Assembly: GCF_000521865.1 (NCBI RefSeq)
Contig: NZ_JAME01000016.1
Span: 1-64,000 of the forward strand
Reading direction: 5' to 3'
DNA length: 64,000 nucleotides
Source of the DNA: Roseivivax isoporae LMG 25204
GTDB taxonomy: Bacteria; Pseudomonadota; Alphaproteobacteria; Rhodobacterales; Rhodobacteraceae
Below, in pieces: positions 14,879-35,491 of the stretch (position 1 is the stretch's first letter; every line of letters starts with the position of its first letter). The notes beneath the pieces are model-generated. The model was not told where the DNA came from. It searched no databases and saw nothing but the letters and a program-made list of their open reading frames with translations. A program made the translations under genes and the position numbers.

Positions 14879-14961
14879 GGCGATGTCCTCCCTGCCCCGT
14901 TCGCGGGGCCCTCGGGTCACCTTAGCGCCAGCCGGGCGGCGCTCAAACACCGCCCAATGTC

Positions 14962-15885: not shown

Positions 15886-15970
15886 GCGGACGGCCCCTCC
15901 TGCCCGTGCACGATCACGTCGGGTCAAGCTAGGTCGCGCGCCGCATCCGGTCCAATCACGACCGGTCGCG

Positions 15971-17086
15971 CTATTCCGCGGGCTCGACGCTGCGCAGCGG
16001 GGCCTCGCGGTAGGTCAGGGCCGCGTCCTCGGCGCTCGCATGGCCCGCCGCGCGGGCCTGCAGCGCGCCGTGATGGGGCGACTTCACGCAGACCGGGTCG
16101 GTCGCCGCGGCGTCGCCCACCAGCGCCATGGCCTGGCAGCGGCAGCCGCCGAAATCCACGGTCTTGCGCTCGCAGGACCGGCAGGGCTCCTGCATCCAGT
16201 CGGTGCCGCGATAGGCCTCGAAGGCCGCGCCGCGATACCAGATGTCCGCGAGCGGCCGCTCCGCGACGGTGTCGAAGCGAAGGTGCGGGATCGATTCGGC
16301 CGCGTGGCAGGGCAGCACCTTGCCGTCCGGCGTGACATTGAGCCCGGTCGTCCCCCAGCCCCCCATGCAGCGCTTGGGATAGTCGGAATGGTAGTCGGCC
16401 GGCACGTAGTCGATGACGAGCGTGCCCTTGAGCCGCGCGCGCGCCTCGGCCACGATCCGGTCCGCCTCGCGCGCCTGCGCCTCGGTCGGCATCAGCGCGT
16501 CGCGGTTCCGGAGCGCCCAGCCGTGGAACTGGACGGTCGCGACCTCGATGCGGCGGGCGCCCATCTCGACTGCCATCTCGATCGCGCGGGGCAATTGGTG
16601 CAGGTTGCGCCGGTGCAGGACCGCGTTCAGCGTCAGCGGGAAGCCCACGGCACCGATCCACTTCACGACCTGCATCTTGCGGTCGAACCCGCCGCGATAG
16701 CCGCCGATCTCGTCGGCCATGGCCGAGTCGGTGCCCTGCAGCGACAGCTGGACATGGTCGAGCCCCGCCGCGTCGAGCGCGCCGAGGCGGCGTTCGGTCA
16801 ACCCGATGCCCGAGGTGATGAGATTGGTGTAGAGCCCGGCCTCGCGCGCCGCGGCCACGAGCGTCTCGAGATCGCGCCGCGAGGCGGGCTCGCCACCTGA
16901 CAGGTGGAGCTGCAGCACCCCGAGATCCGCGGCCTGCCGGAACACGTCCGTCCAGGTCTCGGTGGACAGCTCGCTGTCCACCCGTGCGAGTTCGACGGGG
17001 TTCGAGCAATAGGGGCAGGAGAGCGGGCAGCGATGCGTCAGTTCGGCCAGCATCGCGATGGGAGGGCGGACGGTCGGTGCGGTCAT
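15971..17086 (-). CDS. pqqE: PqqA peptide cyclase (radical SAM)
   Basis: A 371-residue radical SAM/SPASM enzyme that forms the carbon-carbon crosslink between Glu and Tyr of PqqA, the first committed step of pyrroloquinoline quinone synthesis. The radical SAM cluster motif CPLSCPYC is at about residues 20-27, followed by the GGEP motif (HLSGGEPASR). The C-terminal SPASM cysteines include CMGGWG, LPCHAAE, EPCRSCERK and FGGCRCQ. It overlaps pqqD by four bases and ends the operon pqqABCDE. The PqqA substrate encoded at 19038-19127 has the required Glu and Tyr. Confidence 0.96.
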   Translation of the reverse strand: MTAPTVRPPIAMLAELTHRCPLSCPYCSNPVELARVDSELSTETWTDVFRQAADLGVLQLHLSGGEPASRRDLETLVAAAREAGLYTNLITSGIGLTERRLGALDAAGLDHVQLSLQGTDSAMADEIGGYRGGFDRKMQVVKWIGAVGFPLTLNAVLHRRNLHQLPRAIEMAVEMGARRIEVATVQFHGWALRNRDALMPTEAQAREADRIVAEARARLKGTLVIDYVPADYHSDYPKRCMGGWGTTGLNVTPDGKVLPCHAAESIPHLRFDTVAERPLADIWYRGAAFEAYRGTDWMQEPCRSCERKTVDFGGCRCQAMALVGDAAATDPVCVKSPHHGALQARAAGHASAEDAALTYREAPLRSVEPAE

Positions 17087-22800: not shown

Positions 22801-23540
22801 TCGGCAGCCTCGTGACGGTGGGGATGGTCGTGGTCGTGCCGGTGGTCGTGATCGTGGCGGTAGAGCGCCAGCGCACCCTCAGTCCCGGTTCCAAAAAGCG
22901 CGCGGTATTCCGCGGCCTGCGCCACCACCTCCGGCGTGCCGTCGCAGCAGATGTGCCCGTTGAGGCAGATCACCCGGTCCGAGGCCGCCATCACCACGTG
23001 CAGCTCGTGGCTGACCATGAGGACAGCGCAGCCGATCTCGGCCCTGAGCGCGGCGATGAGCCGGTAGAACGCCGCCGATCCCGGCTGGTCGAGGCCCTGC
23101 GTCGCCTCGTCGAGGATCAGGAGCTCGGGGGTTCCGATGAGCGCGCGGGCGAGGAGGACGCGCTGGAACTGGCCGCCCGAAAGGTCGGTCATCTGCCGCG
23201 GGCCGAGCCCCGCCGCGCCGGCACGCGCGAGCGCGGCCTCGGCCGTCCCGGGGTCGACGCGGCGCGGCAGGCTCAGGAATCGCGAGACGCTCATGGGCAG
23301 GGTGGGGTCGATGTGCAGCCGCTGTGGCACGTAGCCGATGCGGAGCCCGCCCTTGCGGTCGATCCGGCCCGAGGACGGGGCGAGGGCCCCGATGATCGCG
23401 CGCAGGAGCGTGGACTTGCCCGACCCGTTCGGGCCGACGATGGTCACGATCTCGCCCGGCGCGAGGTCGAGGTCCACACCGTCGAGCACGGTGCGCCCGC
23501 CGAGCTTCACGTGCAGCCCGCGAATCGTGAGGAGGGTCAT
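22797..23540 (-). CDS. znuC: Zinc ABC transporter ATP-binding protein
   Basis: A 247-residue ABC ATPase with Walker A (VGPNGSGKST), signature LSGGQFQRV, Walker B (LLILDEATQGLD) and the switch His (MVSHELHV). The C-terminal tail is strikingly His/Asp-rich (HDHDHRHDHDHPHRH), a frequent feature of ZnuC proteins that may buffer or sense zinc. It overlaps zur upstream and znuB downstream by four bases each, so zur-znuC-znuB form one operon. Confidence 0.95.
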   Translation of the reverse strand: MTLLTIRGLHVKLGGRTVLDGVDLDLAPGEIVTIVGPNGSGKSTLLRAIIGALAPSSGRIDRKGGLRIGYVPQRLHIDPTLPMSVSRFLSLPRRVDPGTAEAALARAGAAGLGPRQMTDLSGGQFQRVLLARALIGTPELLILDEATQGLDQPGSAAFYRLIAALRAEIGCAVLMVSHELHVVMAASDRVICLNGHICCDGTPEVVAQAAEYRALFGTGTEGALALYRHDHDHRHDHDHPHRHEAAE

Positions 23541-24034
23541 GCCTGCGCCTTCGCGGTCCGGTCCTCGCGGCAGGCCGGGCAGATGCCCTCGGCCTCGAGC
23601 ACCGCGCGTTCGATGACGAAACCCGCGGCATCGGCGGACCGCGCGAGCCGTCCGTCGGCGAGGTCGGTCTCGGCCTCGGCCACGCGGTCGCAGACGCGGC
23701 AGATCAGGAAGGCGGGCGTGTGGTCCCGCCGCTGCGGGTGGGTGCAGGCGACGAACGCGTTCAGGTGCTCGATCCGGTGCGCGAAACCGTGCGTCACGAG
23801 GAAATCGAGCGCGCGGTAGGCCACGGGCGGCTGCGAGCCCAGCCCCTCCTCGCGCAGCACGTCGAGGATGTCGTAGGCCCCCATGGCGCGGTGGCGTTCG
23901 AGCAGGATCTCGAGCACGCGCCGGCGCACCGGGGTCAGCTGCAGGCCCGCCGCCGCGCAGTGCCGCTCGGCTGTGGCGACCCCCGTCGCGATGCAGGCGG
24001 CGTGGTCGTGTCGTTCGAAGCCGGTCGTCCGCAT
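23537..24034 (-). CDS. zur: Zinc-responsive repressor, Fur family
   Basis: A 165-residue Fur-family regulator. The N-terminal winged helix has LTPVRRRVLEILLERHRAMGAYDILDVLR, and the dimerisation half carries the structural CxxC pairs (ICRVC near 125 and ICPAC near 155) plus metal ligands in CTHPQRRDH. Operon position with znuCB, divergent from znuA, identifies it as Zur rather than Fur. It presumably represses both directions through the palindrome at 24098-24112. Confidence 0.92.
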   Translation of the reverse strand: MRTTGFERHDHAACIATGVATAERHCAAAGLQLTPVRRRVLEILLERHRAMGAYDILDVLREEGLGSQPPVAYRALDFLVTHGFAHRIEHLNAFVACTHPQRRDHTPAFLICRVCDRVAEAETDLADGRLARSADAAGFVIERAVLEAEGICPACREDRTAKAQA

Positions 24035-24097
24035 GCTGCGCTCCTTCGGTCGAGTGTCTCTTGATATGTTATCGCGTTACCTCTATCAAGCGGTCTA

Positions 24098-24112
24098 TGT
24101 TATACTATTACA
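24098..24112. promoter_or_regulatory. Zur-box-like palindrome
   Basis: TGTTATACTATTACA is a 15-base near-perfect palindrome (six of seven arm positions pair) in the AT-rich 88-bp region between divergent zur and znuA. It is close to the Zur motif of alphaproteobacteria, which has GTTAT/ATAAC arms. It lies about 10 bases before the znuA start codon, so bound Zur would block that promoter or its transcript start. Confidence 0.65.
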
Positions 24113-24122
24113 AGAGGTCAGG

Positions 24123-25127
24123 ATGATCGGGAAACTGAGCGCCGGCGCGCTGCTGCTCGCCGGAACCGCCGCGATGGCCGAGGTGCCGCGCGTGGCGACC
24201 GACATCGCCCCCGTGCACGGGCTCGTGGCGCGGGTCATGCAGGGGCTGGGCACGCCCGAGCTGGTGGTGCCGCAGGGCGCATCGCCGCATGGATACGCGA
24301 TGCGCGCCTCCGAGGCGCAGTCCCTCGACGATGCCGACATCGTGTTCTGGGTGGGCGAGGCGCTGACGCCGTGGCTGGCCGATCCGCTCGGGACCATCGC
24401 GCGCGACGCGCGGTCGGTGGAGCTGCTGGCGCTGCCCGAGACGGCCGTGCTCGACAGCCGCGAGGAGGCCGTGTTCGAGGCCGGTGCGGCCGAGGACGCG
24501 CACGATCACGAGGATCACGCCGAGCATGACCACGGCGACCATGACCACGAGGCGCACGCGGAACACGATCACGAGGCGCATGCCGGGCACGGGCACGAGG
24601 ATCACGGCCATGCCCACGGCGGCACCGATCCGCATGCCTGGCTCGACCCCGACAACGCCAGGACCTGGCTCTCGGTGATCGCCGCATCGCTGTCGGATCT
24701 CGATCCCGAGAATGCCGACACCTACCGCGCCAATGCCGAGGCCGGCGTGGCGGAGATCGACGCGGCCGAGGACCGCGCTGCCGAGGCACTGTCCGGCGCG
24801 ACCGACCGGCCCTTCGTGGTCTTCCACGATGCCTACCAGTACTTCGAGGCGCATTTCGGCCTTCCCGCGGCGGGCGCCATCTCGGTCAGCGACGCGAGCG
24901 ATCCGAGCCCGCGGCGCGTGGCCGAGATCCGCGACGCGGTGGTCGATCGCGGCATCACCTGCGTCTTCGCCGAGCCGCAGTTCAACCCGGGGCTCGTGAC
25001 GGCCATCGCGGGCGACGGGCTGTCCAGCGCCGTGATCGACCCGCTCGGCGCCAGGATCGAGCCCGGGCCGGGCTTCTATCCCGCGCTCATCGAGAAGATC
25101 GCCGACACCATCGCGACCTGCGGCTGA
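24123..25127 (+). CDS. znuA: Zinc ABC transporter substrate-binding protein
   Basis: A 334-residue cluster-9 periplasmic metal-binding protein. The signal peptide ends near AAMAEVP. Conserved ligands are HGLV (His near 34), the central DPHAWLDP and the HDAYQYFE block, with a late Asp in VIDPLG. Between residues about 122 and 160 lies a long His/Asp/Glu-rich loop with many DHE, DHG and HAH repeats, typical of ZnuA and able to hold extra zinc. It is divergent from zur-znuCB. The start at 24123 is preceded by an AGAGGT ribosome site. Confidence 0.95.
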   Translation: MIGKLSAGALLLAGTAAMAEVPRVATDIAPVHGLVARVMQGLGTPELVVPQGASPHGYAMRASEAQSLDDADIVFWVGEALTPWLADPLGTIARDARSVELLALPETAVLDSREEAVFEAGAAEDAHDHEDHAEHDHGDHDHEAHAEHDHEAHAGHGHEDHGHAHGGTDPHAWLDPDNARTWLSVIAASLSDLDPENADTYRANAEAGVAEIDAAEDRAAEALSGATDRPFVVFHDAYQYFEAHFGLPAAGAISVSDASDPSPRRVAEIRDAVVDRGITCVFAEPQFNPGLVTAIAGDGLSSAVIDPLGARIEPGPGFYPALIEKIADTIATCG

Positions 25128-25132
25128 GCCCG

Positions 25133-25169
25133 CGCGATCCGGGGCGGCCCGAAGCGGCCCCGGATCGCG
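25133..25169. terminator. Bidirectional terminator hairpin between znuA and the Gfo/Idh/MocA gene
   Basis: A perfect 13-bp stem (25133-25145 with 25157-25169, loop of 11 bases) fills the gap between two convergent genes. It lacks a strong T-run on either strand but its position and stability support termination of both transcripts. Confidence 0.65.
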
Positions 25170-25172
25170 GCG

Positions 25173-26255
25173 TCAGAGCCGCACGACCTCGCCGGTCAGC
25201 GCCGATTGCTGCGCGGCGAGGCCCATGGCCACCGCCCGCGCACCGTCATCGAGGGTGACCTCGACCCGGCCCTTGCCGCGCACCACCTCGAGGAAGCGCT
25301 GGTGCTGGTAGAAGGTCGAGCCGTTGTGGTCGCCTGCCTCGAGAAGGTCCGGGTCGACCGGGACGTCCAGTTCCTGCTCGCCCCTGGGATTGCGCGGGCT
25401 GACCACGATCTTCGGCACCGGCGCGGGGCCGAGCGACTCGGGCCAGAAGCGGCCGGGCCCCGGCACGAGCGCCTCGATCTTGCCCTTGGGACCCATGGCG
25501 CTCAGGTGTTCCTGATAGCGCGCGCCCTCGGCGAACATGCACAATTCGAGCATCGCCCGCGCGCCCGAGGCGAAATCCACGATGACATAGCCGTTGTCCC
25601 AGATGTCGGGCCGCTTGCCGTCGTATTCCTCGGCCTGGTGGTTCACGTCCTGGGCGGCCGAGGCCATGATGCGCACGGGTTCCGATTTCAGGATCAGGCG
25701 CATGAGGTCGAAGAAGTGGCAGCACTTCTCGACCAGCGTGCCGCCCGACTGCGCGTTGAACCGGTTCCAGGCGCCCACCTTGTCGAGGAAGGGGAAACGG
25801 TGCTCGCGCACCGTCAGCATCCGGATGCCGCCGGTCGTGTCCTCGGCGCGGTCGATCATCATCGCGATGGGCGGCATGTAGCGGTATTCCATCGCGACCC
25901 AGATCGGCGCGGGATAGTCCGACGACAGCCGCTTCAGCCGGTCGGCCTGGTCGGGCGCGGTGAACAGCGGCTTTTCCACGAGGAGCGGCAGCGGACGCTG
26001 GCCGGCGACCTGTTCCATCTGGTCCACGTGGACGTGGTTGGGCGAGGCGATCAGCAGGCAGTCGAGCGCGTTGCGCTTCAGCATCTCGTCGACGGACCCG
26101 ACCATCGCCGCCTCGGGGGCAAGCCGCGACGCCGCGCCTGCCATGAGCGGGTCGGGTTCGAGGATCGCCTCGACCCGTGCGTCGCCCAGCAGGCGGATGT
26201 TCCGGATGTGCTCCTGCCCCATCATCCCGGCGCCGATGATGCCGTAGTTGATCAT
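25173..26255 (-). CDS. Gfo/Idh/MocA family protein, possible NAD-dependent glycosidase of a sulfosugar route
   Basis: A 360-residue protein. An N-terminal Rossmann fold has GIIGAGMMGQEH (residues 5-16), the family EKP motif occurs as LLVEKPLF (near 95) and the C-terminal alpha/beta domain includes GGTLVEKCCHFFDLMR. The start at 26255 is the ATG that gives the intact glycine-rich loop. It is divergent from, and 129 bp away from, an operon for an SsuD-like monooxygenase, an aldo/keto reductase, a flavin reductase, a TRAP transporter and a YeiH exporter. Gfo/Idh/MocA-like NAD-dependent sulfoquinovosidases (GH188) are known in sulfoquinovose clusters that lack the usual GH31 enzyme, and this gene could fill that role. 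A simple sugar or inositol dehydrogenase is the main alternative. Confidence 0.75.
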   Translation of the reverse strand: MINYGIIGAGMMGQEHIRNIRLLGDARVEAILEPDPLMAGAASRLAPEAAMVGSVDEMLKRNALDCLLIASPNHVHVDQMEQVAGQRPLPLLVEKPLFTAPDQADRLKRLSSDYPAPIWVAMEYRYMPPIAMMIDRAEDTTGGIRMLTVREHRFPFLDKVGAWNRFNAQSGGTLVEKCCHFFDLMRLILKSEPVRIMASAAQDVNHQAEEYDGKRPDIWDNGYVIVDFASGARAMLELCMFAEGARYQEHLSAMGPKGKIEALVPGPGRFWPESLGPAPVPKIVVSPRNPRGEQELDVPVDPDLLEAGDHNGSTFYQHQRFLEVVRGKGRVEVTLDDGARAVAMGLAAQQSALTGEVVRL

Positions 26256-26324
26256 GCCTCTCGGGCTCCTCGGTTCTGGCGGGGTGCGGCGGTCCGGCCC
26301 CGACTCGAAAGAATTGATACAGCA

Positions 26325-26338
26325 TTGATGCACATCAA
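26325..26338. promoter_or_regulatory. Perfect FNR/FnrL-type box in the divergent promoter of the desulfonation cluster
   Basis: TTGATGCACATCAA is an exact TTGAT-N4-ATCAA palindrome, the binding motif of FNR-type regulators. It lies between the divergent Gfo/Idh/MocA and monooxygenase genes, centred about 53 bases before the monooxygenase ATG. A third half-site, TTGAT at 26314-26318, precedes it. FnrL is encoded in this window at 34757-35491. Whether it activates or represses cannot be told from position. Confidence 0.65.
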
Positions 26339-26384
26339 GGACGATGCTACGCAAGGGGCAATCCGACCGTGGAAAGAGATTCGC

Positions 26385-27542
26385 ATGACCATCGTTCCCG
26401 TGACATCCGCCGATCTCGACGCCTACGAGGTGTCCTGGTTCGCGGCGCTGTGTTCCGACGACTACCAGTTCCTCGGCGTGCCCGAGGCGCGGCTCAAGTC
26501 GAGCTGGGAGCATTGCTCGGCGATCCTGAAGGAGGCGGAGGCGCAGGGCTTTCGCAACATCCTGTGCCCCTCGTCCTACCAGGTCGGGCAGGACGTCCTG
26601 TCCTTCGTGGCGGCGGGCGCGCAGGTGACATCGGACATCAACATGCTGGCGGCGATCCGCTGCGGCGAGCTGCACCCGATCATGCTGGCGCGCACGGTCG
26701 CGACCATCGACCACATGATGAAGGGCCGGCTGACGCTGAACGTCATCTCGTCGGACTTCCCCGGCGAGAAGGCCGAGAGCCGGTTCCGCTACCAGCGCTC
26801 GCGCGAGGTGGTCGAGATCCTCAAGCAGGCGTGGACGCGGGACCGGATCGATTACGAGGGCGAGGTCTACAGCTTCAAGAACCTCTGGACCGATCCCGCG
26901 AAGCCCTACCAGCAGAACGGCGGGCCGCTGCTCTATTTCGGCGGCTACTCGCCCGACGCGCTGGAGCTCTGCGGCCAGCACTGCGACGTCTACCTCATGT
27001 GGCCGGAACCCGAGGAGCAGATCGCCCAGCGGATGCGCGACGTGAACGCGGTCGCCGAACGCTACGGGCGGACGCTCGACTACGGCCTGCGCGTGCACAT
27101 GATCGTGCGCGACACCGAGGCCGAGGCACGGGAATACGCCGACTACATCGTCTCGAAGCTCGATGACGAGCTCGGGCAGCTGATCCGAGAGCGCGCGCAC
27201 GACGCCTCCTCCCTGGGCGTGAGCCACCAGGCTCGGGCGCGGGAGCTTGCGGACCAGTTCGGATACGTGGAGCCGGGCCTCTGGACCGGCATCGGCCGCG
27301 CGCGGTCGGGCTGCGGCGCGGCGCTGGTCGGCTCGGTGGACCAGGTGATGACGAAGATCGAGAAGTACCGCGAGATGGGCATCCGCGCCTTCATCTTCTC
27401 GGGCTATCCGCATCTCGACGAGTGCCGCCATTTCGGCGAGAAGGTGCTGCCGAACCTCAAGACCTGCTCGCTTCCGCACGAATACGGCCGCGTGCCGGCC
27501 GATCCCCCTGCGACCCCCCTCGGAGAAGGAGAGCGCACGTGA
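26385..27542 (+). CDS. FMNH2-dependent monooxygenase, SsuD/alkanesulfonate type (possible sulfoquinovose monooxygenase)
   Basis: A 385-residue luciferase-like (LLM) flavin monooxygenase. It keeps residues matching the catalytic set of alkanesulfonate monooxygenase SsuD: an RVH motif (Arg236, His238) and a late SGYPHLDE motif (Tyr341, His343), with a cysteine in NILCPSSYQ near the SsuD active-site cysteine region. Such enzymes use FMNH2 and O2 to split carbon-sulfur bonds, releasing sulfite and an aldehyde. The start at 26385 lies behind GGAAAGAG. The stop overlaps the aldo/keto reductase start (GTGA). With the flavin reductase, aldo/keto reductase and exporter alongside, the gene set matches the SmoC role in sulfoquinovose oxidative desulfonation; other organosulfonates are possible. 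Confidence 0.82.
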   Translation: MTIVPVTSADLDAYEVSWFAALCSDDYQFLGVPEARLKSSWEHCSAILKEAEAQGFRNILCPSSYQVGQDVLSFVAAGAQVTSDINMLAAIRCGELHPIMLARTVATIDHMMKGRLTLNVISSDFPGEKAESRFRYQRSREVVEILKQAWTRDRIDYEGEVYSFKNLWTDPAKPYQQNGGPLLYFGGYSPDALELCGQHCDVYLMWPEPEEQIAQRMRDVNAVAERYGRTLDYGLRVHMIVRDTEAEAREYADYIVSKLDDELGQLIRERAHDASSLGVSHQARARELADQFGYVEPGLWTGIGRARSGCGAALVGSVDQVMTKIEKYREMGIRAFIFSGYPHLDECRHFGEKVLPNLKTCSLPHEYGRVPADPPATPLGEGERT

Positions 27543-28435
27543 CCGTTTCCCGCATCACGCTTGCCCAAGACCTCGAGTTCAGCCGCATCGTCTACGGCAT
27601 GTGGCGCCTGTCGGACGACACCGACACGAGCCCCGAACATGTGCGCGCCAAGATCGAGGCCTGCCTCGAGCAGGGCATCACGACCATGGACCAGGCCGAC
27701 ATCTACGGCGGCTACGAGGCCGAGGAGGTCTTGGGCCGCGCGCTGAAGGGCACCGACCTGCGCGACCGGATCGAGATCGTCACCAAGTGCGACATCGTCG
27801 CGCCGGCCGGCCGCTACGCCGACCGCCGGGTGAAGCACTACGACACCTCGCGCGCGCACATCGAGGCGTCGATCGACCATTCGCTGCGGCTCATGGAGAT
27901 CGAGCACATCGACCTCCTGCTGATCCACCGGCCCGACCCGATGATGGACCACCACGAGACCGGCGCGGCGCTCGATGCCGCGGTGGCGAGCGGCAAGGTC
28001 CGCCACGTGGGCGTGTCGAACTTCAAGCTGCACGACTGGACGCTCCTGCAATCGGCGATGAAGACGCCGCTCGTCACAAACCAGATCGAGCTGTCGCTGC
28101 TGGCGCCCGAGGGATTCGTGAACGGCGACGTGGCGTTCCTGCAGGAGCGCGGCATCCGGCCCATGGCATGGTCGCCGCTCGGCGGCGGCGCGCTGTTCCA
28201 GCCCGAGGCGGCGGCACTGCGCAACCGCATGGACCAGATCGCGGCGGACCACGGCGTCGACACGGCCGCCGTCGCGGTGGCGTGGCTCCTTGCCCACCCG
28301 GCCGCGATCCTGCCGGTGATGGGCACCAACACCATCGACCGCATCCGGGCGCTCGGAGCCGCGGAGCGGGTCAAGATCGACCGGCAGACGTGGTTCGAAC
28401 TTTACACCCTTGCGCTCGGGCACGAGGTACCCTGA
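27539..28435 (+). CDS. Aldo/keto reductase (YdhF-like), possible reductase of the desulfonated aldehyde
   Basis: A 298-residue AKR-superfamily protein with the catalytic tetrad visible: Asp and Tyr in MDQADIYGGYEAEE (near residues 47-55), Lys in IVTKCDI and His in LLLIHRPDP. The C-terminal NADP-binding element is LPVMGTNTIDRIRAL. The start is the GTG at 27539, overlapping the stop of the monooxygenase gene by four bases; an upstream ATG at 27422 lies inside the monooxygenase gene. In the sulfo-SMO pathway an AKR (SmoB) reduces 6-oxo-glucose to glucose, and this gene is in the right place for that step. Substrate not proven. Confidence 0.82.
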   Translation: MTVSRITLAQDLEFSRIVYGMWRLSDDTDTSPEHVRAKIEACLEQGITTMDQADIYGGYEAEEVLGRALKGTDLRDRIEIVTKCDIVAPAGRYADRRVKHYDTSRAHIEASIDHSLRLMEIEHIDLLLIHRPDPMMDHHETGAALDAAVASGKVRHVGVSNFKLHDWTLLQSAMKTPLVTNQIELSLLAPEGFVNGDVAFLQERGIRPMAWSPLGGGALFQPEAAALRNRMDQIAADHGVDTAAVAVAWLLAHPAAILPVMGTNTIDRIRALGAAERVKIDRQTWFELYTLALGHEVP

Positions 28436-28436
28436 C

Positions 28437-28955
28437 ATGGACGGTGCGATGAGCATGAGCCAAGACACCTTTGAACCCGGTCCCGAGACCCAGCGCGCCT
28501 TCCGCGACGCGCTGGGACGTTTCGCGACGGGCGTCACGATCGTCACCACCCAGACCGCGGACGGACCGATCGCGATCACCGCGAACAGCTTCGCGTCGCT
28601 GTCGCTCGACCCGCCGCTGGTGCTGTGGTCGCCGGCCAAGGCGTCGAGCCGCTTCTCCTACTTCGCGGAGGCGGACCATTTCGCCATCCACGTCCTCGGC
28701 ACGGACCAGGCGCAGCTCTGCGGCGAGGTCGCCCGGGACGGGCGGCGATTCCGGCCGGGCGACCTGACCGAGAACGACAAGGGCGTGCCGCTGATCGGCT
28801 CGGCGCTGGCCCATTTCGAATGCGCGCGCGAGGCGGTGCACGATGGCGGCGACCACGTCATCGTCGTCGGTCGGGTGGAGCGTGTCCGGATGCGCGACGG
28901 CGATCCGCTGCTGTTCCTTCAGGGGCGCTACGGCGCGTTCCGCGCGCTCGGTTGA
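28437..28955 (+). CDS. Flavin reductase (FMN), partner of the monooxygenase
   Basis: A 172-residue flavin reductase of the HpaC/SsuE-unrelated flavin_reductase domain family. Its core is ALGRFATGVTIVTTQTADGPIAITANSFASLSLDPPLVLWSP (about residues 25-65), which binds FMN, with GDHVIVVGRVERVRMRDGDPLLFLQGRYG near the end. It supplies FMNH2 to the monooxygenase upstream, forming a two-component system. Possible starts are ATGs at 28437, 28449 and 28455; the first leaves one base after the aldo/keto reductase stop and is preferred, but the third is also reasonable. Confidence 0.88.
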   Translation: MDGAMSMSQDTFEPGPETQRAFRDALGRFATGVTIVTTQTADGPIAITANSFASLSLDPPLVLWSPAKASSRFSYFAEADHFAIHVLGTDQAQLCGEVARDGRRFRPGDLTENDKGVPLIGSALAHFECAREAVHDGGDHVIVVGRVERVRMRDGDPLLFLQGRYGAFRALG

Positions 28956-29045
28956 CGCGCCGGAGACCCGCGCCGACAGACGCGCGGGCGGGGAGGAGCG
29001 GCACCGGCGCCGCGGGGCCCGCGCCATGCGGGATGGGAGGAGAAG

Positions 29046-29633
29046 ATGGGACTTGTCCGGGGGCTGCTCGTGCCTCTCGAATTCTGGAACGACTGGGTGC
29101 TCGCGCTCGGTCGGTGGCTGGCGCTCCTCGCGCTGGCCCTGATGGTGATCGTGACGCTGGCGCAGGTGTTCTTCCGCTACGTGCTGAACAACGCGCTGCC
29201 CTGGCCGGACGAGGCAGCACGGTTCCTCATGCTGTGGATGACCGGCCTTGCCGCGCCCACCGCGTTCCGCCGCGGCGGCTTTGTCGCCATCGACACGGTG
29301 GAACAGTTCCTGTCGCGCCAGGTCGCGCGCATCCTGACGCTCGTTCTGCTGGGGCTCTGCCTCACCGTGCTGGTGATCGGCGTGCAGCTGGGGCTCAAGC
29401 ACGTGAATTCCGGCTGGCTCTTCAACTCGTCCTCGCTGCGCCTGCCCCTCGACCTTTTCGGGGGCGAAAGCGTGCGGATCAAGCTCGCGTGGATGTACAT
29501 GTCGCTCTGGGTCGGCATGGGGCTCCTGCTCATCGTCAACATCGAGCTCATCCTGCGCCAGATCGTCCGGATCGCGGGCCAGGGCGACACGCTCAGGTCC
29601 GTCGGCGCCACCGACCTGCCGGAGGCCGAATAG
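29046..29633 (+). CDS. TRAP transporter small permease (DctQ type)
   Basis: A 195-residue membrane protein with four hydrophobic segments (about 22-45, 57-75, 98-122 and 150-172). It has the DctQ hallmark VFFRYVLNNALPWPDEAARFLMLWMTGLAAPTAFRRGGF. It sits one base ahead of the large permease and 90 bp after the flavin reductase. With DctM and DctP it makes a complete tripartite ATP-independent uptake system driven by sodium or proton gradients. Confidence 0.93.
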   Translation: MGLVRGLLVPLEFWNDWVLALGRWLALLALALMVIVTLAQVFFRYVLNNALPWPDEAARFLMLWMTGLAAPTAFRRGGFVAIDTVEQFLSRQVARILTLVLLGLCLTVLVIGVQLGLKHVNSGWLFNSSSLRLPLDLFGGESVRIKLAWMYMSLWVGMGLLLIVNIELILRQIVRIAGQGDTLRSVGATDLPEAE

Positions 29634-31097
29634 ATGCTCGTCTGGTTCCTGCCCGTCTTCCTCGTGTTCCTGATGATCGGCATGCCGGTCTTCTTCGCGC
29701 TGCTCTTCGCGCCCGGCGCGCTGCTGTGGCTGAACGGTCAGGAGCGCGACCTCGCGCTTCTCTACCGCAACCTCTACAACGGGATGGACAGCTTCCCGCT
29801 GATGGCGCTGCCGTTCTTCCTGCTCGCGGGCGAGATCATGAACCGCGGCGGCATCACCACGCGGCTCGTGGAGTTCAGCCAGGCCTTCATGGGCCACCTG
29901 CGGGGCGGGCTCGCCCACGTGAACATCCTGTCCTCGATCCTCTTCGCCGGCCTCTCGGGCTCCGCGGTGGCGGACACCTCGGCGCTCGGCTCGACCCTGA
30001 TTCCCGCGATGGAGAAGCAGGGCTATACCCGCCGCTTCGCCGCCGCGATCACCGCGGCCTCGTCGGTGATCGGGCCGATCATCCCGCCCTCGGGGATCAT
30101 GATCATCTACGCCTACGTGATGGGCCAGTCGGTCGCGGCCCTGTTCCTCGCCGGCATCGTGCCGGGCATCCTCGTGGGCATCGGGCTCATGCTCATGGTG
30201 CGCTTCCTCGCCGACCGCTACGACCTGCCCAAGGCCGAGCGCATCATCGAGAAGGGCGCGGCCATCAGCGACGTCGAGCACTGGGTCAGCTTCGTCCTGC
30301 TCCGGATGAACCTCGCGGGCCTGTTCTATCTGATCGCCTGGGCCGCAGGCACGGGCGGGCTCGCCGTCTATCTCGGCATGCTGGTCCCGGCGCATTTCCT
30401 GCTGATCTGGTACCGCGGTCGCGTCAGCGCCGATTTCCGCGTGGTCTGCAAGAAGGCCGTGGCGCCCCTGCAGACGCCCATCATCATCCTGGGCGGCATC
30501 CTGATCGGCGTCTTCACCCCGACCGAGGCCGCGGCCATCGCCGTGCTCTACGCGCTGATCGTGTCCTTCGGCGTGCTGCGGGTCATCACGGTCGCGGACC
30601 TGGCCGAGGTCCTGCGCCGCTCGGCCATCGCGTCGGCGACGGTTCTGCTGCTCGTCGGCGCCGCCGTCAGCTTCAAGACCGTGGTGTCGCTCAGCCACGC
30701 GCCCGAGATGCTGGCCGAGTTCATCCTCGGGCTGTCCGAGAACCCGCTGATCCTGCTCTTCCTCATCAACGTCCTGCTCTTCATCGTGGGCATGTTCCTC
30801 GATGCGGGGCCGGCGATCATCATCCTCGGGCCGATCCTCGGGCCGGTCTTCACCGGGCTCGGCGTCGATCCCGTGCACTTCGCCATCATCATGTCGGTGA
30901 ACCTGACCGTCGGGCTCGCGACGCCGCCCATGGGGCTCGTGCTGTTCGTGGCCTCCTCGGTCTCGGGGGAGCGGGTCGAGACGATCAGCAAGGCGATCCT
31001 GCCGTTCCTCGCGGTGGAGGTGCTGGTGATCTTCCTGATCACCTATTTCCCCGCGATTTCCTTGACGATCCCGCGGCTCGCGGGCTTCGCGAACTGA
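29634..31097 (+). CDS. TRAP transporter large permease (DctM type)
   Basis: A 487-residue integral membrane protein with roughly 12 hydrophobic segments. DctM-family blocks are visible: LPFFLLAGEIMNRGGITTRLVEFS, SGSAVADTSALGSTLIPAMEKQGY, ASSVIGPIIPPSGIMI and the late VNLTVGLATPPMGLVLFV. The ATG directly follows the stop of the small permease gene, so the two are coupled. Longer than the commonest DctM (about 430 residues), with an extra charged stretch near 185-215. Confidence 0.94.
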   Translation: MLVWFLPVFLVFLMIGMPVFFALLFAPGALLWLNGQERDLALLYRNLYNGMDSFPLMALPFFLLAGEIMNRGGITTRLVEFSQAFMGHLRGGLAHVNILSSILFAGLSGSAVADTSALGSTLIPAMEKQGYTRRFAAAITAASSVIGPIIPPSGIMIIYAYVMGQSVAALFLAGIVPGILVGIGLMLMVRFLADRYDLPKAERIIEKGAAISDVEHWVSFVLLRMNLAGLFYLIAWAAGTGGLAVYLGMLVPAHFLLIWYRGRVSADFRVVCKKAVAPLQTPIIILGGILIGVFTPTEAAAIAVLYALIVSFGVLRVITVADLAEVLRRSAIASATVLLLVGAAVSFKTVVSLSHAPEMLAEFILGLSENPLILLFLINVLLFIVGMFLDAGPAIIILGPILGPVFTGLGVDPVHFAIIMSVNLTVGLATPPMGLVLFVASSVSGERVETISKAILPFLAVEVLVIFLITYFPAISLTIPRLAGFAN

Positions 31098-31122
31098 TCT
31101 CAGCACCACAGGGAGGTATCTG

Positions 31123-32181
31123 ATGCTGAAACGAACCCTCACGGCCCTGACTGCCGCGGCGCTGCTCGCCGCACCGGGGGCCGCGCTGGCGCAGGAATAC
31201 ACCATCCGCGCCACCGCCAACTCGAACGAGAGCGACGAGGACTACGACGGGCTCGTGGTCTTCAAGAACTACGTCGAACAGGCGTCGAACGGCGCGATCG
31301 AGGTCGAGCTCTTCATCGGCACGCAGCTCTGCTCGAACGGGGCGGAATGCCTGCAGGGCATCGCCGACGGGTCGATCGACGTGTTCGTGACCACCTCGGG
31401 CGGCGCCGCCGGCATCTTTCCCTACGTGCAGGTGTTCGACCTGCCCTACCTGATGCGGTCCGACCGCGTGGCCGAGGCGGTGCTGACCGATACCGACTTC
31501 ACCCGCACGCTGCGCGACCTCGCGCTCGAGGCCTCGGGCGACACGATCCGCATCATGACCATCGGCAATACCGGCGGCTGGCGCAACTTCGCCAACACGC
31601 AGAAGCGCATCGCCGGTCCCGCCGACCTCGAGGGCATGAAGATGCGCACCGTGGTCGCCGACCTGCCGCAGGAGCTGGTCAAGACGCTCGGCGGCTCGCC
31701 GACGCCGATTCCGTGGCCCGAGCTCTTCACCTCGCTGCAGACCGGCGTGGTGGACGGCACCAAGAACGGCATCACCGACATCATGAACATGAAGTTCCCC
31801 GATGCCGGGCTGAAATACCTGACGCTCGACGGGCACGCCTACATGGCCGCCATCTGGGTCATGAACAACGAGAAGTTCATGTCGATGCCCGAGGACATGC
31901 GCCGCGTGGTCGTCAACGGCTTCAAGGAGCTGCAGCAGGCCACCTTCGCTTCGCCCAAGCGCAAGTCGATCGCGGCCTACGAGGAATTCGCGGCCGCGGG
32001 CGGCGAGGTCTACGTGCCCACGCCCGAGGAACGGCAGGCGTTCCAGGACGCCGCGGCGCCGGTCTACGACTGGTTCGCATCGAACGTCGACAACGGCGAG
32101 GAGGTGCTTCAGGCGCTGCGTGACGCGGTCGCTCAGGTCGAGGAGACCATCGACGCCGACATCGCGGCCGACATCCAGTAA
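31123..32181 (+). CDS. TRAP transporter substrate-binding protein (DctP type)
   Basis: A 352-residue periplasmic protein with a signal peptide ending at ALAQEY. DctP-family blocks include LCSNGAECLQGIADGSIDVFVTTS, the conserved arginine region DLEGMKMRT (near 170, normally binding a carboxylate or similar anion), PTPIPWPELFTSLQTGVVDGTKNG and a helical tail. Substrate specificity cannot be read directly. Its operon (flavin monooxygenase, AKR, sulfate exporter) argues for a sulfonate such as sulfoquinovose or its glycoside, with the anionic sulfonate taking the place of the usual carboxylate. Confidence 0.92.
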   Translation: MLKRTLTALTAAALLAAPGAALAQEYTIRATANSNESDEDYDGLVVFKNYVEQASNGAIEVELFIGTQLCSNGAECLQGIADGSIDVFVTTSGGAAGIFPYVQVFDLPYLMRSDRVAEAVLTDTDFTRTLRDLALEASGDTIRIMTIGNTGGWRNFANTQKRIAGPADLEGMKMRTVVADLPQELVKTLGGSPTPIPWPELFTSLQTGVVDGTKNGITDIMNMKFPDAGLKYLTLDGHAYMAAIWVMNNEKFMSMPEDMRRVVVNGFKELQQATFASPKRKSIAAYEEFAAAGGEVYVPTPEERQAFQDAAAPVYDWFASNVDNGEEVLQALRDAVAQVEETIDADIAADIQ

Positions 32182-32188
32182 GCCGTTC

Positions 32189-32218
32189 GCGCCGCGGCGG
32201 CACCCGTCGCCGCGGCGC
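32189..32218 (+). terminator. Hairpin between dctP and the yeiH-like gene
   Basis: An 11-bp perfect GC stem (32189-32199 with 32208-32218, eight-base loop) without a T-run. It may protect the binding-protein transcript or partly attenuate transcription into the exporter gene. Confidence 0.5.
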
Positions 32219-32287
32219 CCTCCCCGGGTCCCCTTCCACTTTCGAACGCCCACCTCGCCGGACCGACCGGACGACGGAGTCTTGCCG

Positions 32288-33298
32288 ATGACCGACCTGC
32301 TGCACCCCGCCGCGCTGCGCGCCGCCGCCGACCGGCTGTTTCCCGGGATCGCGGTCGCGGGGCTCGTCGCGGTCTGCGCGCAGTTCCTGTCGGAACATTA
32401 CGGCGCGCCGGCGATGCTCATGGCGATCCTGCTCGGCATCGCGCTGCACTTCCTGTCCGAGGAGGGACGCTGCGTCGAGGGAATCGACGTGTCGGCCAAG
32501 AAGATCCTGCGCATCGGCGTGGCGCTGCTCGGCGTGCGCATTTCGCTCGAGCTGCTGGCGGGGCTCGGGCCGGCCTTCGTCGCGCTGACGGTGCTGGGCG
32601 TCGCCGCGACCATCGGGGTCGCGCTGCTGGTCTCGCCGCTGTTCGGCCGCGGACGCCGCTTCGCCTTTCTCACCGGCGGCTCGGTCGCCATCTGCGGCGC
32701 GTCGGCGGCCATGGCGATCTCGGCGGTGCTGCCGCGCAACGACCGCTCGGAACAGGACCTCGTGTTCACAGTGGTGGGGGTCACGGTGCTGTCGACCGCG
32801 GCAATGATCGTCTACCCCATCGTCGCCGCGCAGGCCGGGCTCGACCCGGTGGTGACCGGGGTCTTCCTCGGCGGCACCATCCACGACGTGGCGCAGGTGG
32901 TCGGCGCCGGCTATTCGGTGTCCGAGGAAACCGGCGACGTGGCGACCCTGGTCAAGCTGATCCGCGTCAGCCTGCTCGCGCCCGTGGTGCTGATCGCCGC
33001 CATGGTGCTGCGGGCACAGGGGGCGACCGGCGCGCAGCGCCCGCCGCTCCTTCCGGGTTTCGTGGTGGGCTTCCTCGTCCTCGCCGCGCTCAATTCGATG
33101 CACCTGATCCCGGCCGCGCTGATCGACGCGGCGAACGCGGTGTCCCGCTGGGCGCTGCTGACCGCGATCGCCGCCGTGGGCATGAAGACCTCGATCCCGA
33201 ACCTGCTGAAGGTCGGGCGCACGGCGATCCTGATGCTGGTGGCCGAGACGCTGTTCCTCGCGACGCTCGTGCTCGGGGGCGCGGCGCTCCTCGCCTGA
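32288..33298 (+). CDS. YeiH-family putative sulfate/sulfite exporter (PSE family)
   Basis: A 336-residue membrane protein with about ten hydrophobic segments, of the YeiH/UPF0324 family. Family blocks are ILRIGVALLGVRISLELL, GGSVAICGASAAMAISAVLP and GGTIHDVAQVVGAGYSVS, plus the late AAVGMKTSIPNLLKVG. Members accompany sulfonate degradation genes and are thought to export the sulfite or sulfate released. This is the strongest independent hint that the monooxygenase upstream cleaves a carbon-sulfur bond. The start at 32288 is the ATG nearest the family N-terminus. Confidence 0.88.
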   Translation: MTDLLHPAALRAAADRLFPGIAVAGLVAVCAQFLSEHYGAPAMLMAILLGIALHFLSEEGRCVEGIDVSAKKILRIGVALLGVRISLELLAGLGPAFVALTVLGVAATIGVALLVSPLFGRGRRFAFLTGGSVAICGASAAMAISAVLPRNDRSEQDLVFTVVGVTVLSTAAMIVYPIVAAQAGLDPVVTGVFLGGTIHDVAQVVGAGYSVSEETGDVATLVKLIRVSLLAPVVLIAAMVLRAQGATGAQRPPLLPGFVVGFLVLAALNSMHLIPAALIDAANAVSRWALLTAIAAVGMKTSIPNLLKVGRTAILMLVAETLFLATLVLGGAALLA

Positions 33299-33308
33299 TG
33301 CGCCCGTT

Positions 33309-34667
33309 TCAGATCGCCCGGCTGTAGGCCGCCTCCTTCTGCGCCAGGAAGGTGTCGAACTCGGCGCAAACGAGCCGCGCGAACCGCCCGTCCGACGCGG
33401 TCAGCCGCAGGTGCCCGGCCTCGACTGCGACCTCCGGCCCGAACCTCTCGAGGATCCGCTCGAGCGTGGCGTGGAAGGCGGCGAGCGTCATGCCGTGCGC
33501 CGCCGCGATCCCGCCCACGTCGGCGGCGAAGTCGCACATCAGGCGGTCGATGATCTCGCCCCGGCAGCGGTCCTCGGAGGAGAGCGCGTAACCCCGCACC
33601 GAGGCCAAGCGTCCCTCGTCGATCCGCGCGGCCCAGGCGCCGCTTGCCGGCGCGTTCTGCACGTGACCCTGGGGAAAACGCGAGATCGCGGATGCCCCGA
33701 AGCCGAGCAGCACGCGTGCGTCGTCGGTGGTGTAGCCCTGGAAGTTCCGGCGCAGCCTGCCGGCCTGCGCCGCCAGCGCGAGCGTGTCGCCCGGCCGCGC
33801 GAAATGGTCGATGCCTGCCGGCACATAGCCGGCCCAGAGCAGGAGCCGCCGGGCCAGCTCGAACAGCGCCAGCCGTTCCGCGGGGCCCGGCAGCGCATCC
33901 TGCGGGATCAGCCGCTGGCGCCGCGCCATCTGCGGCACGTGCGCGTAGCCGTAGATCGCCACGCGGTCCGGGACCAGCTCGTCGACATGCGCGAGGGTCG
34001 CGCGCAGCGACGCGGCATCCTGGTGCGGCAGGCCGTAGATCAGGTCGACGTTCAGCGACCGCGCCCCTCGCGCGCGAAGACCCTCGGCGGCGGCGCGCGT
34101 CGCCTCGAAGCTCTGCGGCCGCCCGATCGCGGATTGCACCGCGTCCGCGAAATCCTGCACCCCGATCGAGGCCCGCGTGAGGCCGATCGACGCCAGCGCG
34201 TCGAGCCGGCGTTCGTCGAGCTCCATCGGATCGACCTCGACCGAGACCTCGGCGTCGGGCAGCACGTCGAAGGACGACCGGAGCGCCGCGTCGATGGCGC
34301 GCAGCAGGTGCGGCGGCAGGATCGTGGGCGTGCCGCCCCCGAAATGCACGGCCGAGGCCGGCTGCGGGTGCCGCAGCAGCGCCGCGACGCGCCGGATCTC
34401 GGTCACGAGGCGCTTCACGTAGGCATCGAGCGGCGCGTCGGTGCGCGTGCCCTGCGTGCGGCAGGCGCAGAAATGGCAGAGCCGCCGGCAGAACGGGATG
34501 TGCAGGTAGATCGACACCGGGCGGTCAGGATCGACCGAGGCGATCCAGCGCGCGTGCCGGTCGGGTCCGACCTCCGGGGTGAAGTGGTTGGCAGGCGGGT
34601 AACTCGTGTACCGCGGCACGGAGGCGCGGGCGAGCAGCGAGTCGGCGGGAGATGGCGATCTGGTCAT
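33309..34667 (-). CDS. hemN: Oxygen-independent coproporphyrinogen III oxidase (radical SAM)
   Basis: A 452-residue HemN. The radical SAM cluster motif is CRRLCHFCAC (near residues 60-69), with the extra cysteine diagnostic of genuine HemN. HFGGGTPTILPPHLL and GVQDFADAVQSAIGRPQ are conserved, and the C-terminal HemN domain has EIIDRLMCDF. It decarboxylates coproporphyrinogen III when oxygen is low, feeding heme and bacteriochlorophyll. The start at 34667 (MTRSPSP) is chosen over upstream ATGs at 34685 and 34703 because the latter overlaps the FnrL box. Divergent from fnrL, with which it shares that box. Confidence 0.94.
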   Translation of the reverse strand: MTRSPSPADSLLARASVPRYTSYPPANHFTPEVGPDRHARWIASVDPDRPVSIYLHIPFCRRLCHFCACRTQGTRTDAPLDAYVKRLVTEIRRVAALLRHPQPASAVHFGGGTPTILPPHLLRAIDAALRSSFDVLPDAEVSVEVDPMELDERRLDALASIGLTRASIGVQDFADAVQSAIGRPQSFEATRAAAEGLRARGARSLNVDLIYGLPHQDAASLRATLAHVDELVPDRVAIYGYAHVPQMARRQRLIPQDALPGPAERLALFELARRLLLWAGYVPAGIDHFARPGDTLALAAQAGRLRRNFQGYTTDDARVLLGFGASAISRFPQGHVQNAPASGAWAARIDEGRLASVRGYALSSEDRCRGEIIDRLMCDFAADVGGIAAAHGMTLAAFHATLERILERFGPEVAVEAGHLRLTASDGRFARLVCAEFDTFLAQKEAAYSRAI

Positions 34668-34702: not shown

Positions 34703-34716
34703 TTGACGCAGATCAA
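34703..34716. promoter_or_regulatory. FnrL box between hemN and fnrL
   Basis: TTGACGCAGATCAA matches TTGAY-N4-RTCAA. It lies between divergent hemN and fnrL, centred about 42 bases from the hemN start and 47 from the fnrL start, so it could serve oxygen control of hemN and autoregulation of fnrL. Confidence 0.85.
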
Positions 34717-34756
34717 CATCAGAATTGTAATGGGACAGAACAATTCTGGAATCGTC

Positions 34757-35491
34757 ATGCCGCTTGCCCCCGTCCAAGAGACCTGCGCGGGCTGCCCCAT
34801 CCGGCATCGTGCCGTCTGCGCCCACTGCGAGCCGCAGGAACTGGAGCGTCTCGAGCGCATAAAGTCCTATGCGGACATCGCCGCCGGCGCGCCGATCTTC
34901 TTTGCCGGCGAGCCGATGCGCCACGTGGCGTCGGTCGTGTCCGGCGCGGCCATCCTGTCGCGCACGCTCGAGGACGGCCGCCGCCAGATCAACGGCCTGA
35001 TGCTGCCCTCGGATTTCATCGGCCGGCCCTGGCGCGAGACGATCCCCTTCGACGTGACCGCGGCGTCCCCGGTGCGGCTCTGCCGGTTCGAGCGCATCGC
35101 CTTCGAGAAGATCCTGGGCGACACGCCGCACGTGTCCGAACGGCTCCTGTCGATGACGCTCGACGATCTCGACGCCGCGCGGGACTGGGCCGTGGTGCTG
35201 GGGCGGATGGCCGCGCGCGAGCGCATCTCGGCCTTCCTGCTGATCCTCGCGCGCAGGCTCGGCCGCACCGACCGGCACGACCCGTCGCGCGTGACATTCT
35301 CGCTGCCGCTGACGCGCGAGGCGATCGCGGACCTCCTCGGGCTCACGCTCGAGACCGCGAGCCGGCAGATGTCGGCGCTGCGCCGCGACGGCGTGATCGA
35401 GACCGAAGGCAGGTCCACGGTGATCGTGCCCGACCTCGCGCGCCTGCAGGAAGAGGCGCAGGACGACGACGACGGCACCGGCCTGACCTGA
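34757..35491 (+). CDS. fnrL: Oxygen-sensing FNR-family transcription regulator
   Basis: A 244-residue Crp/Fnr regulator. N-terminal cluster cysteines are Cys10, Cys13, Cys21 and Cys24, and the central one is Cys109 (RLCRFER), suited to an oxygen-labile [4Fe-4S] cluster. The cNMP-like beta barrel covers about 30-130 and the helix-turn-helix is LTREAIADLLGLTLETASRQMSALRRDGVIE, with the ETASR recognition segment (E-x2-S-R) that reads TTGAY half-sites. It activates anaerobic/microaerobic and photosynthesis genes in Rhodobacter relatives. Start at 34757 chosen so that the Cys motif begins near residue 10; an in-frame ATG at 34730 is possible. Confidence 0.94.
   Translation: MPLAPVQETCAGCPIRHRAVCAHCEPQELERLERIKSYADIAAGAPIFFAGEPMRHVASVVSGAAILSRTLEDGRRQINGLMLPSDFIGRPWRETIPFDVTAASPVRLCRFERIAFEKILGDTPHVSERLLSMTLDDLDAARDWAVVLGRMAARERISAFLLILARRLGRTDRHDPSRVTFSLPLTREAIADLLGLTLETASRQMSALRRDGVIETEGRSTVIVPDLARLQEEAQDDDDGTGLT

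Follow-up and report, generated by a model that had tools for sequence, protein, structure and literature searches.

A 64 kb window of the Roseivivax isoporae LMG 25204 genome (the whole stretch of DNA analyzed here, on contig C16 of the 4.9 Mb genome) carries an island of eight genes at 25173-33298, and the question that it raises is which compound the encoded enzymes and transporters handle and how. The initial annotation had proposed an oxidative desulfonation island for a sulfosugar of the sulfoquinovose (SQ) type, and this proposal is supported by the identities of three of its enzymes and by the conserved residues of two of them. We consider it very probable that the island is a catabolic cluster of the SQ monooxygenase (sulfo-SMO) pathway with a sulfoquinovosidase of glycoside hydrolase family 188 (GH188), together with the predicted import of SQ glycosides by a tripartite ATP-independent periplasmic (TRAP) transporter, efflux through a YeiH-type carrier, and control by a GntR/UTRA regulator. 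The case is built from sequence, i.e., from gene identities, residue conservation, co-occurrence, and operator conservation, and it includes SmoC, SmoB, and GH188 matches that are far ahead of the next families, with the examined residues kept in SmoC and GH188. All genes cited by the initial annotation are present with open reading frames, with the GH188-type gene of the Gfo/Idh/MocA fold on the minus strand and the divergent set smoC-smoB-flavin reductase-dctQ-dctM-dctP-yeiH on the plus strand.

The first gene of the plus-strand set, smoC (26385-27542; 385 amino acids), encodes a predicted FMNH2-dependent SQ monooxygenase by orthology to the Protein Data Bank (PDB) chains 7oh2 and 7olf, which we take to be SmoC (the PDB lists them as alkanesulfonate monooxygenase and methanesulfonate sulfonatase). 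Identity is 302/384 (78.6%) to 7oh2 and 295/384 (76.8%) to 7olf with 709 and 695 bits, respectively, compared to 195 and 178 bits for the next alkanesulfonate monooxygenase chains, and W206, R236, H238, R307, Y341, and H343, presumably the key active-site residues, are identical in both. The protein had been described as an SsuD-type monooxygenase with conserved Arg236/His238 and Tyr341/His343 motifs, and these motifs are indeed there; when SmoC and SsuD are weighed against each other, however, the protein falls far short of the SsuD equivalog TIGR03565 (236 vs. a cut-off of 518 bits), of which it is the sole match in its own genome. Its closest matches among the best 80 of 89 relatives are from Roseivivax, with up to 92% identity. 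The start codon (GTG) of the next gene, smoB (27539-28435, plus strand; 298 amino acids), overlaps the smoC stop codon. Its product is an aldo/keto reductase (PF00248) and putative 6-dehydroglucose reductase that scores 418 bits against 7bbz/7bby vs. 244 bits for the next kind, which agrees with the suspected relationship to SmoB if 7bbz (listed as aryl-alcohol dehydrogenase) is SmoB, as we assume. A flavin reductase had likewise been claimed, and a PF01613 protein of 172 amino acids is encoded in the operon (28437-28955, plus strand) as a candidate for the SmoA role; its best NCBIfam match is FerA at 217 bits, under the cut-off of 260. The activities of these enzymes are predicted by orthology.

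The divergent gene (25173-26255, minus strand; 360 amino acids; PF01408/PF02894) is sqgA-like and had been suspected to encode a GH188-like enzyme. Its product scores 520 bits against 8zn9, which is listed only as a putative oxidoreductase, and 371/370 bits against 8qc3/8qc2, which Kaur et al. 2023 (PMC10755693) give as SqgA structures in their data statement, while the next match is the inositol dehydrogenase IolG at 64 bits; the separation from sugar dehydrogenases is thus one of pairwise score and not of a tree. Identity to ArSqgA is 51% over 350 columns, and the residues K95, Y124, R153, L157, K159, E176, H180, and H310 of the window protein match K107, Y136, R166, L170, K172, E189, H193, and H321 of ArSqgA, for which we follow the catalytic and sulfonate-binding roles given in the accessible text of PMC10755693. 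Residue 163 of ArSqgA, a Glu in that text, reads V in the numbering used here and is R in the window protein, with the adjacent Glu kept. The protein begins at the Rossmann fold with no signal peptide evident by eye and, since the family also needs NAD+, we take the enzyme to be cytoplasmic; the intact glycoside would therefore have to be imported. The available passages of the same study describe GH188 as near-universal in Roseobacter sulfo-SMO clusters, so that finding SmoC and GH188 together here is expected and not new.

Which transporter would bring in the glycoside? The island had been said to contain a complete TRAP system, and all three subunits are recognized on the plus strand: the small permease DctQ (29046-29633; PF04290), the large permease DctM (29634-31097; PF06808, with TIGR00786 over cut-off), and the solute-binding protein DctP (31123-32181; PF03480), a candidate receptor for SQ or SQ glycosides. 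We compared 82 SmoC loci, i.e., 80 named ones (75-92% identity; the best 80 of 89 relatives), L096 from genome G006, and the window, and scored neighbors by tblastn from about -9 to +9.5 kb around smoC. GH188 was found near smoC in 76 of these loci, SmoB in 73, flavin reductase in 70, GntR in 77, and YeiH in 10. The importer is of the TRAP type in 40 loci and of the ATP-binding cassette (ABC) type in 19, while 19 have neither nearby and four are cut by a contig end; GH188 accompanies smoC in 37/40, 17/19, 18/19, and 4/4 of these classes, respectively. Inspection by eye of the 19 importer-less loci, most of whose genes were not scanned with hidden Markov models (HMMs), revealed no common alternative importer. 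All TRAP loci but L061, which is cut before dctP, keep the order smoC-smoB-flavin reductase-dctQ-dctM-dctP on one strand (39 of 40) and, because this identical order recurs across many genera, the arrangement is not due to chance. When importer type is mapped on a tree of 82 SmoC rows, 78 of which have an importer label, TRAP needs 15 changes, of which at least seven are forced by well-supported branches, while shuffled labels need 26.5 and none of 500 shuffles was as low as 15; exchange or loss of the importer has thus happened repeatedly, though not at random. Among 10 plasmid loci (H2-H11 out of 18 matching records, leaving aside H1 and seven records with less than 60% identity), deposited annotations show a TRAP importer in nine, an ABC importer in one, and a "putative sulfate exporter" in four. 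The same gene order is found in eight of these 10, and the ninth TRAP locus (Qingshengfaniella) has smoC-dctQMP without smoB and flavin reductase beside smoC. Large plasmids with TRAP sulfo-SMO clusters (among L102-L111) occur in Ruegeria, Roseivivax, Roseicitreum, Paracoccus, Qingshengfaniella, Salipiger, and Rhizobium, and two of the 10 plasmid records are typed as mobilizable.

The repeated exchange on the SmoC tree and the 19 of 82 loci without a nearby importer would also be compatible with TRAP genes that import another acid and are merely trapped beside the sulfo-SMO genes, as would the accessible text of PMC4646407 in which TRAP receptors mostly bind carboxylates. We regard this as unlikely. 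The same operon order is found in 39 of the 82 loci, and a comparison of the own genome with 60 relatives shows a discrete family of DctP orthologues, with at least 69% identity in 16 of the 61 genomes and a next best value of 40%; all 16 genomes have SmoC or GH188. Twelve of them carry SmoC at 76% identity or more, while the other four (G009, G015, G022, and G023) lack any SmoC match at E 1e-100 and all have GH188. The receptor also accompanies GH188 in a second SQ pathway: in G009, G023, and G015 the TRAP genes (DctP 75-76%, DctM 75-78% identical) lie about 5 kb from GH188. These clusters, which were HMM-scanned in part with the remaining genes named by eye, encode an SQ-isomerase-like protein, an SlcC-like dehydrogenase, a regulator resembling DeoR, and an aldolase of the LacD type whose match exceeds the subfamily cut-off in L097 and L098. 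A PfkB kinase is part of the L097 (G009) cluster and, by similarity, of L099 (G015), which adds an aldehyde dehydrogenase and the two sulfopyruvate decarboxylase subunits (beta over the cut-off, alpha slightly under). In G022, the neighbors of GH188 are an SQ-isomerase-like protein (260 bits) and PfkB. Since the same receptor stands beside GH188 in these sulfo-EMP2-like clusters (the pathway with SQ isomerase, kinase, and aldolase) without SmoC, TRAP and GH188 look like a common uptake front end, and the evident joint chemistry of the two pathways that share the receptor is the uptake and hydrolysis of SQ glycosides. These SmoC-less clusters lend independent support to SQ or an SQ glycoside as the predicted TRAP substrate.

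To what extent does the receptor itself speak for a sulfonated ligand? An AlphaFold2 model of DctP (mean predicted local distance difference test score [pLDDT] of 81.1; predicted template modeling score [pTM] of 0.80) has as its top Foldseek match the isethionate receptor IseP (E 1.1e-23), practically tied with SiaP, and the top row in VIA-align is 4p47 (Z 34.2, root-mean-square deviation 2.8, 314 aligned residues), tied with the following rows that lie within 1. The model and the alignment were both based on 39 DctP sequences, i.e., that of the window and 38 from SmoC loci, leaving aside the cut L061 and the sequences of the four genomes that lack SmoC. Residues that do not vary among the 39 include Cys70, Cys76, and Arg175, the last of which is part of a conserved KIRT-type motif common to 4p47 and IseP. 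This motif, rather than direct alignment to Haemophilus influenzae SiaP, suggests that Arg175 is the equivalent of SiaP Arg147. This SiaP residue binds the carboxylate, and its counterpart in other TRAP receptors "rarely a sulfonate or phosphate" (passages of PMC4646407).

The IseP match could be read differently, namely as a sign of an ordinary alkanesulfonate (SsuD-type) or small-sulfonate island whose TRAP system imports, e.g., isethionate or taurine, given that SmoC is distantly SsuD-like (TIGR03565, 236 bits) and that TRAP import of taurine, sulfolactate, and isethionate has already been proposed for bacteria of the gut (PMC10507020 and PMC6386719). We consider this very improbable because SmoC shares 77-79% identity with 7oh2/7olf and scores far under the SsuD cut-off, because SmoB and GH188 make no sense with a C2 sulfonate, and because the same TRAP system is found in clusters of the SQ-isomerase type.

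The sulfo-SMO cluster of the window differs from most of its relatives in how its presumed regulator is placed, and neither the absence of a GntR gene from this spot nor a conserved operator-like block at 26313-26354 had been part of the initial annotation. A GntR/UTRA gene is found near smoC in 77 of the 82 loci, directly between GH188 and smoC in 68, and no such gene lies near smoC in L005, L013, L079, L096, and the window. Across the compared genomes, the regulator (E 1e-40) is present in 15 of the 16 whose SmoC is at least 76% identical but in no other of the 61; the 45 without it under this criterion include two with SmoC-like proteins of 49-52% identity. Its gene is no more than 140 bp from smoC in 11 of the 15 genomes. 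In the own genome (C6:46806-47504), G002, G006, and G008, it lies on a different contig or at a distance of about 80 kb (by their coordinates, G001, G002, and G008 correspond to the Roseivivax contigs L005, L013, and L079, respectively). In four genomes of the Roseivivax group (L090, C6:37000-56900; L093; L094; L095), the displaced gene has a Crp-type regulator on one side and a PfkB kinase on the other.

The block in question, ATTGATACAGCATTGATGCACATCAA (26313-26338, plus strand), lies between the divergent genes and is a candidate GntR/UTRA site. It is followed on its 3' side by a conserved ATGCTACGCAA (26344-26354, plus strand; consensus of 80 loci) that may be the -10 element of the smoC promoter. 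The pattern ATTGATNNANNATTGATNNA occurs with at most one mismatch in its 14 fixed letters before smoC in 80 of the 82 loci, compared to six of 12,026 background stretches, each 260 bases long. Four of these six (L010, L049, L058, and L065 at 17377) precede genes of the same set that encode an ABC importer, the flavin reductase, or the regulator, and the remaining two are L060's own displaced smoC site and a match inside smoB (L065 at 11544). All 10 held-out plasmid loci carry the block within two mismatches (nine exactly, one with two) at -70 to -105. Among the 82, the sole locus without the block in reach is L005, and its genome G001 is also the sole SmoC genome without the regulator. In the own genome, a shorter operator core is found exactly once, at smoC, with one single-mismatch site on C40, and the window keeps the block before smoC with the regulator gene on another contig. 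Repression is the predicted mode of control because the block overlaps the expected position of the -35 element.

Part of this block is a palindrome of the form TTGAT-N4-ATCAA (TTGATGCACATCAA, 26325-26338) that occurs once in the 64 kb window with 0.01 expected. It is an exact match to what we take to be the FNR consensus and FnrL, an equivalog over its cut-off, is encoded nearby (34703-35491), so that the site might be an FNR box read by FnrL and the island controlled by oxygen. We find this quite unlikely, given that the exact palindrome is kept in only 32 of 80 loci whereas ATTGATNNANNATTGATNNA is found in 80 of 82, that the block is absent where the genome lacks the GntR regulator (L005), and that fnrL was not found in the examined stretch of any of the 80 other loci.

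The last gene of the island (32288-33298, plus strand) had been annotated as a YeiH exporter. A PF03601 gene is indeed present (222 bits, well over the cut-off), and no second PF03601 protein was found in the own genome, but the protein misses the stricter NCBIfam TIGR00698 cut-off (136.8 vs. 232.6 bits). Its link to sulfo-SMO is supported by its recurrence near SmoC in several genera, and it is a candidate for the efflux of sulfite or sulfate.

Taken as a whole, the island would work as follows. DctPQM would carry SQ glycosides (e.g., sulfoquinovosyl glycerol) through the inner membrane and probably does so with free SQ, too. In the cytoplasm, the NAD+-dependent GH188 enzyme is predicted to cleave the glycoside via transient oxidation at C3. 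SmoC, with FMNH2 supplied by the flavin reductase, would then split the C-S bond to yield sulfite and 6-dehydroglucose, which SmoB would reduce to glucose. The YeiH-type carrier probably removes the sulfite or the sulfate made from it, and the GntR/UTRA regulator encoded elsewhere in the genome most likely represses the divergent promoters via the site at 26313-26338 until a sugar of the pathway releases it.

Several observations weigh against one or the other part of this reading. Regarding efflux, the YeiH protein fails the NCBIfam cut-off as described above and accompanies SmoC in no more than 10 of the 82 loci. Regarding uptake, the fold search with DctP does not single out a sulfonate receptor or discriminate between kinds of receptors, and four of the 16 SmoC genomes lack a DctP of this group. 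Three of the 40 TRAP loci (L005, L009, and L035) have no nearby GH188, and G001 has SmoC and TRAP yet no GH188 genome-wide, which fits transport of free SQ as well, or decay. Among the SmoC-less genomes, the SQ-isomerase-like matches to NF048012 stay below the cut-off of 700 bits (279 in L097, 266 in L098, and 260 in G022), and G022 has TRAP and GH188 on separate contigs. Regarding control, the 82 loci in which the operator was counted are also those from which its pattern was derived, with only the 10 plasmid loci held out and some of these near kin of the earlier ones. Consensus scans of 26200-26450 and 33200-33400 found neither a sigma-70 promoter nor a terminator. The own GntR protein is closer to three copies from other genera (65-66%) than to smoC-adjacent copies of its own genus (52-56%), so that "moved" may in this case mean "replaced".

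The surroundings of the island and of related loci show additional features. The left flank consists of zur-znuABC-like genes (Pfam over cut-off; best NCBIfam matches Zur/ZnuABC, under cut-off) and the right flank of hemN and fnrL, both over cut-off, and ccoN. The zur-znuABC-like genes lie directly upstream of the island here (23537-25173) and of the SmoC-less SQ cluster of G009 from another genus (L097, 1886-3964), but in no others of the 19 genomes with a Zur match and either SmoC (at least 76%) or TRAP and GH188, and this Zur-adjacent start may be either a hotspot or a coincidence. ARAGORN predicted tRNAs at 27617-27701 and 30001-30098 that we judged spurious, being inside smoB and dctM. 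A gene for a MauG-like di-haem peroxidase follows dctP on its 3' side in 11 of the 40 TRAP sulfo-SMO loci, nearly always with a small Sel1/TPR gene, and is also found in L012 (without TRAP and Sel1) and beside the TRAP genes in all four SmoC-less genomes (L009, L012, L014, L015, L017, L053, L055, L057, L062, L068, L073, L081, L097-L099, and L101, plus L102 at 14843-16072). A second, more distant MauG-like subfamily is spread more widely in the family irrespective of SQ genes. Eight rhizobial loci (L029, L037, L043, L046, L047, L050, L051, and L071) combine smoC and GH188 with an ABC importer and KduI and have no smoB nearby; seven of them carry a GH88-like protein and all eight a protein of about 826 amino acids (the L029 copy without Pfam match), and this combination may serve the use of SQ that is attached to glycans containing uronate. 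In L014, L019, L023, L034, L075, and L077, GH188 is followed on the same strand by genes for a Rieske oxygenase and an 805-amino-acid protein of the DAO/GCV_T type (Pfam scan of the L019 and L012 copies). One sulfo-SMO contig of rhodobacterial type, L016, is labeled as an Acidobacteria metagenome-assembled genome (MAG), probably a binning error.

Beyond this island, we find it slightly more plausible than not that TRAP and GH188 serve as an interchangeable front end, specific to sulfoquinovosyl glycosides, for two unrelated back ends (C-S cleavage by SmoC and sulfo-EMP2-like C-C cleavage), that DctP belongs to a receptor family for the intact sulfosugar in which the carboxylate arginine is reused for the C6 sulfonate, and that one GntR/UTRA operator controls SmoC clusters across Rhodobacterales and Rhizobiales. 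In the open-access literature that we searched, we found no description of a TRAP importer in an SQ cluster, of a TRAP/GH188 front end common to pathways, or of the GntR operator, though this search was limited and does not show the importer to be unpublished. SQ use by bacteria of the Roseobacter clade is reportedly the subject of work by Liu et al. from 2023 in ISME J, and this work may well report the TRAP form because a Dinoroseobacter MAG (L073) carries it. The importer for the glycoside form decides whether Roseobacters can use SQ glycosides, while SQ is made at ca. 10 billion tons per year and GH188-bearing Roseobacters are thought to be relevant to marine sulfur cycling (passages of PMC10755693). 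If true, the TRAP/GH188 front end would be a marker for SQ users whichever pathway follows, the operator would mark sulfo-SMO regulons even with scattered genes, and the rule that DctP-type receptors are tuned to carboxylates would become testable.

Compared to known systems, the island is closest to the sulfo-SMO (or sulfo-ASMO) clusters of Agrobacterium and Novosphingobium, in which the same operon of SmoC/SquD, SmoB/SquF, and the flavin reductase SmoA/SsuE adjoins an importer and an SQ glycosidase (passages of PMC9594981 and PMC12890257), with an importer that review passages report as ABC-type for Agrobacterium instead of the TRAP system found here. Unlike in this rhizobial prototype, the regulator gene of the window is outside the cluster, while the PF01613 flavin reductase makes no clear difference because the Agrobacterium larrymoorei locus L058 has the same kind (51% identical). 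No GH188 was found near smoC in L058, and the Agrobacterium glycosidase is presumably a GH31 enzyme whereas the window has GH188. The sulfo-EMP2-type clusters L097, L098, and L099 with SQ isomerase, PfkB kinase, and LacD-type aldolase have TRAP and GH188 in common with the island but no SmoC or SmoB that we could find, and their pathway, assigned by resemblance to review passages, would cleave C-C instead of C-S bonds. IseP and SiaP are like DctP in fold and in the conserved arginine, yet share only 22-26% identity with it in the Foldseek rows, and the predicted substrate of DctP is a C6-sulfonated sugar or its glycoside. Nothing essential sets the GH188 protein of the window apart from SqgA (Kaur et al. 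2023, PMC10755693), a study in whose examined text the term "trap" does not appear. The island is thus a TRAP variant of sulfo-SMO with GH188, a known kind of cluster that is common in Rhodobacterales and involves no new chemistry.

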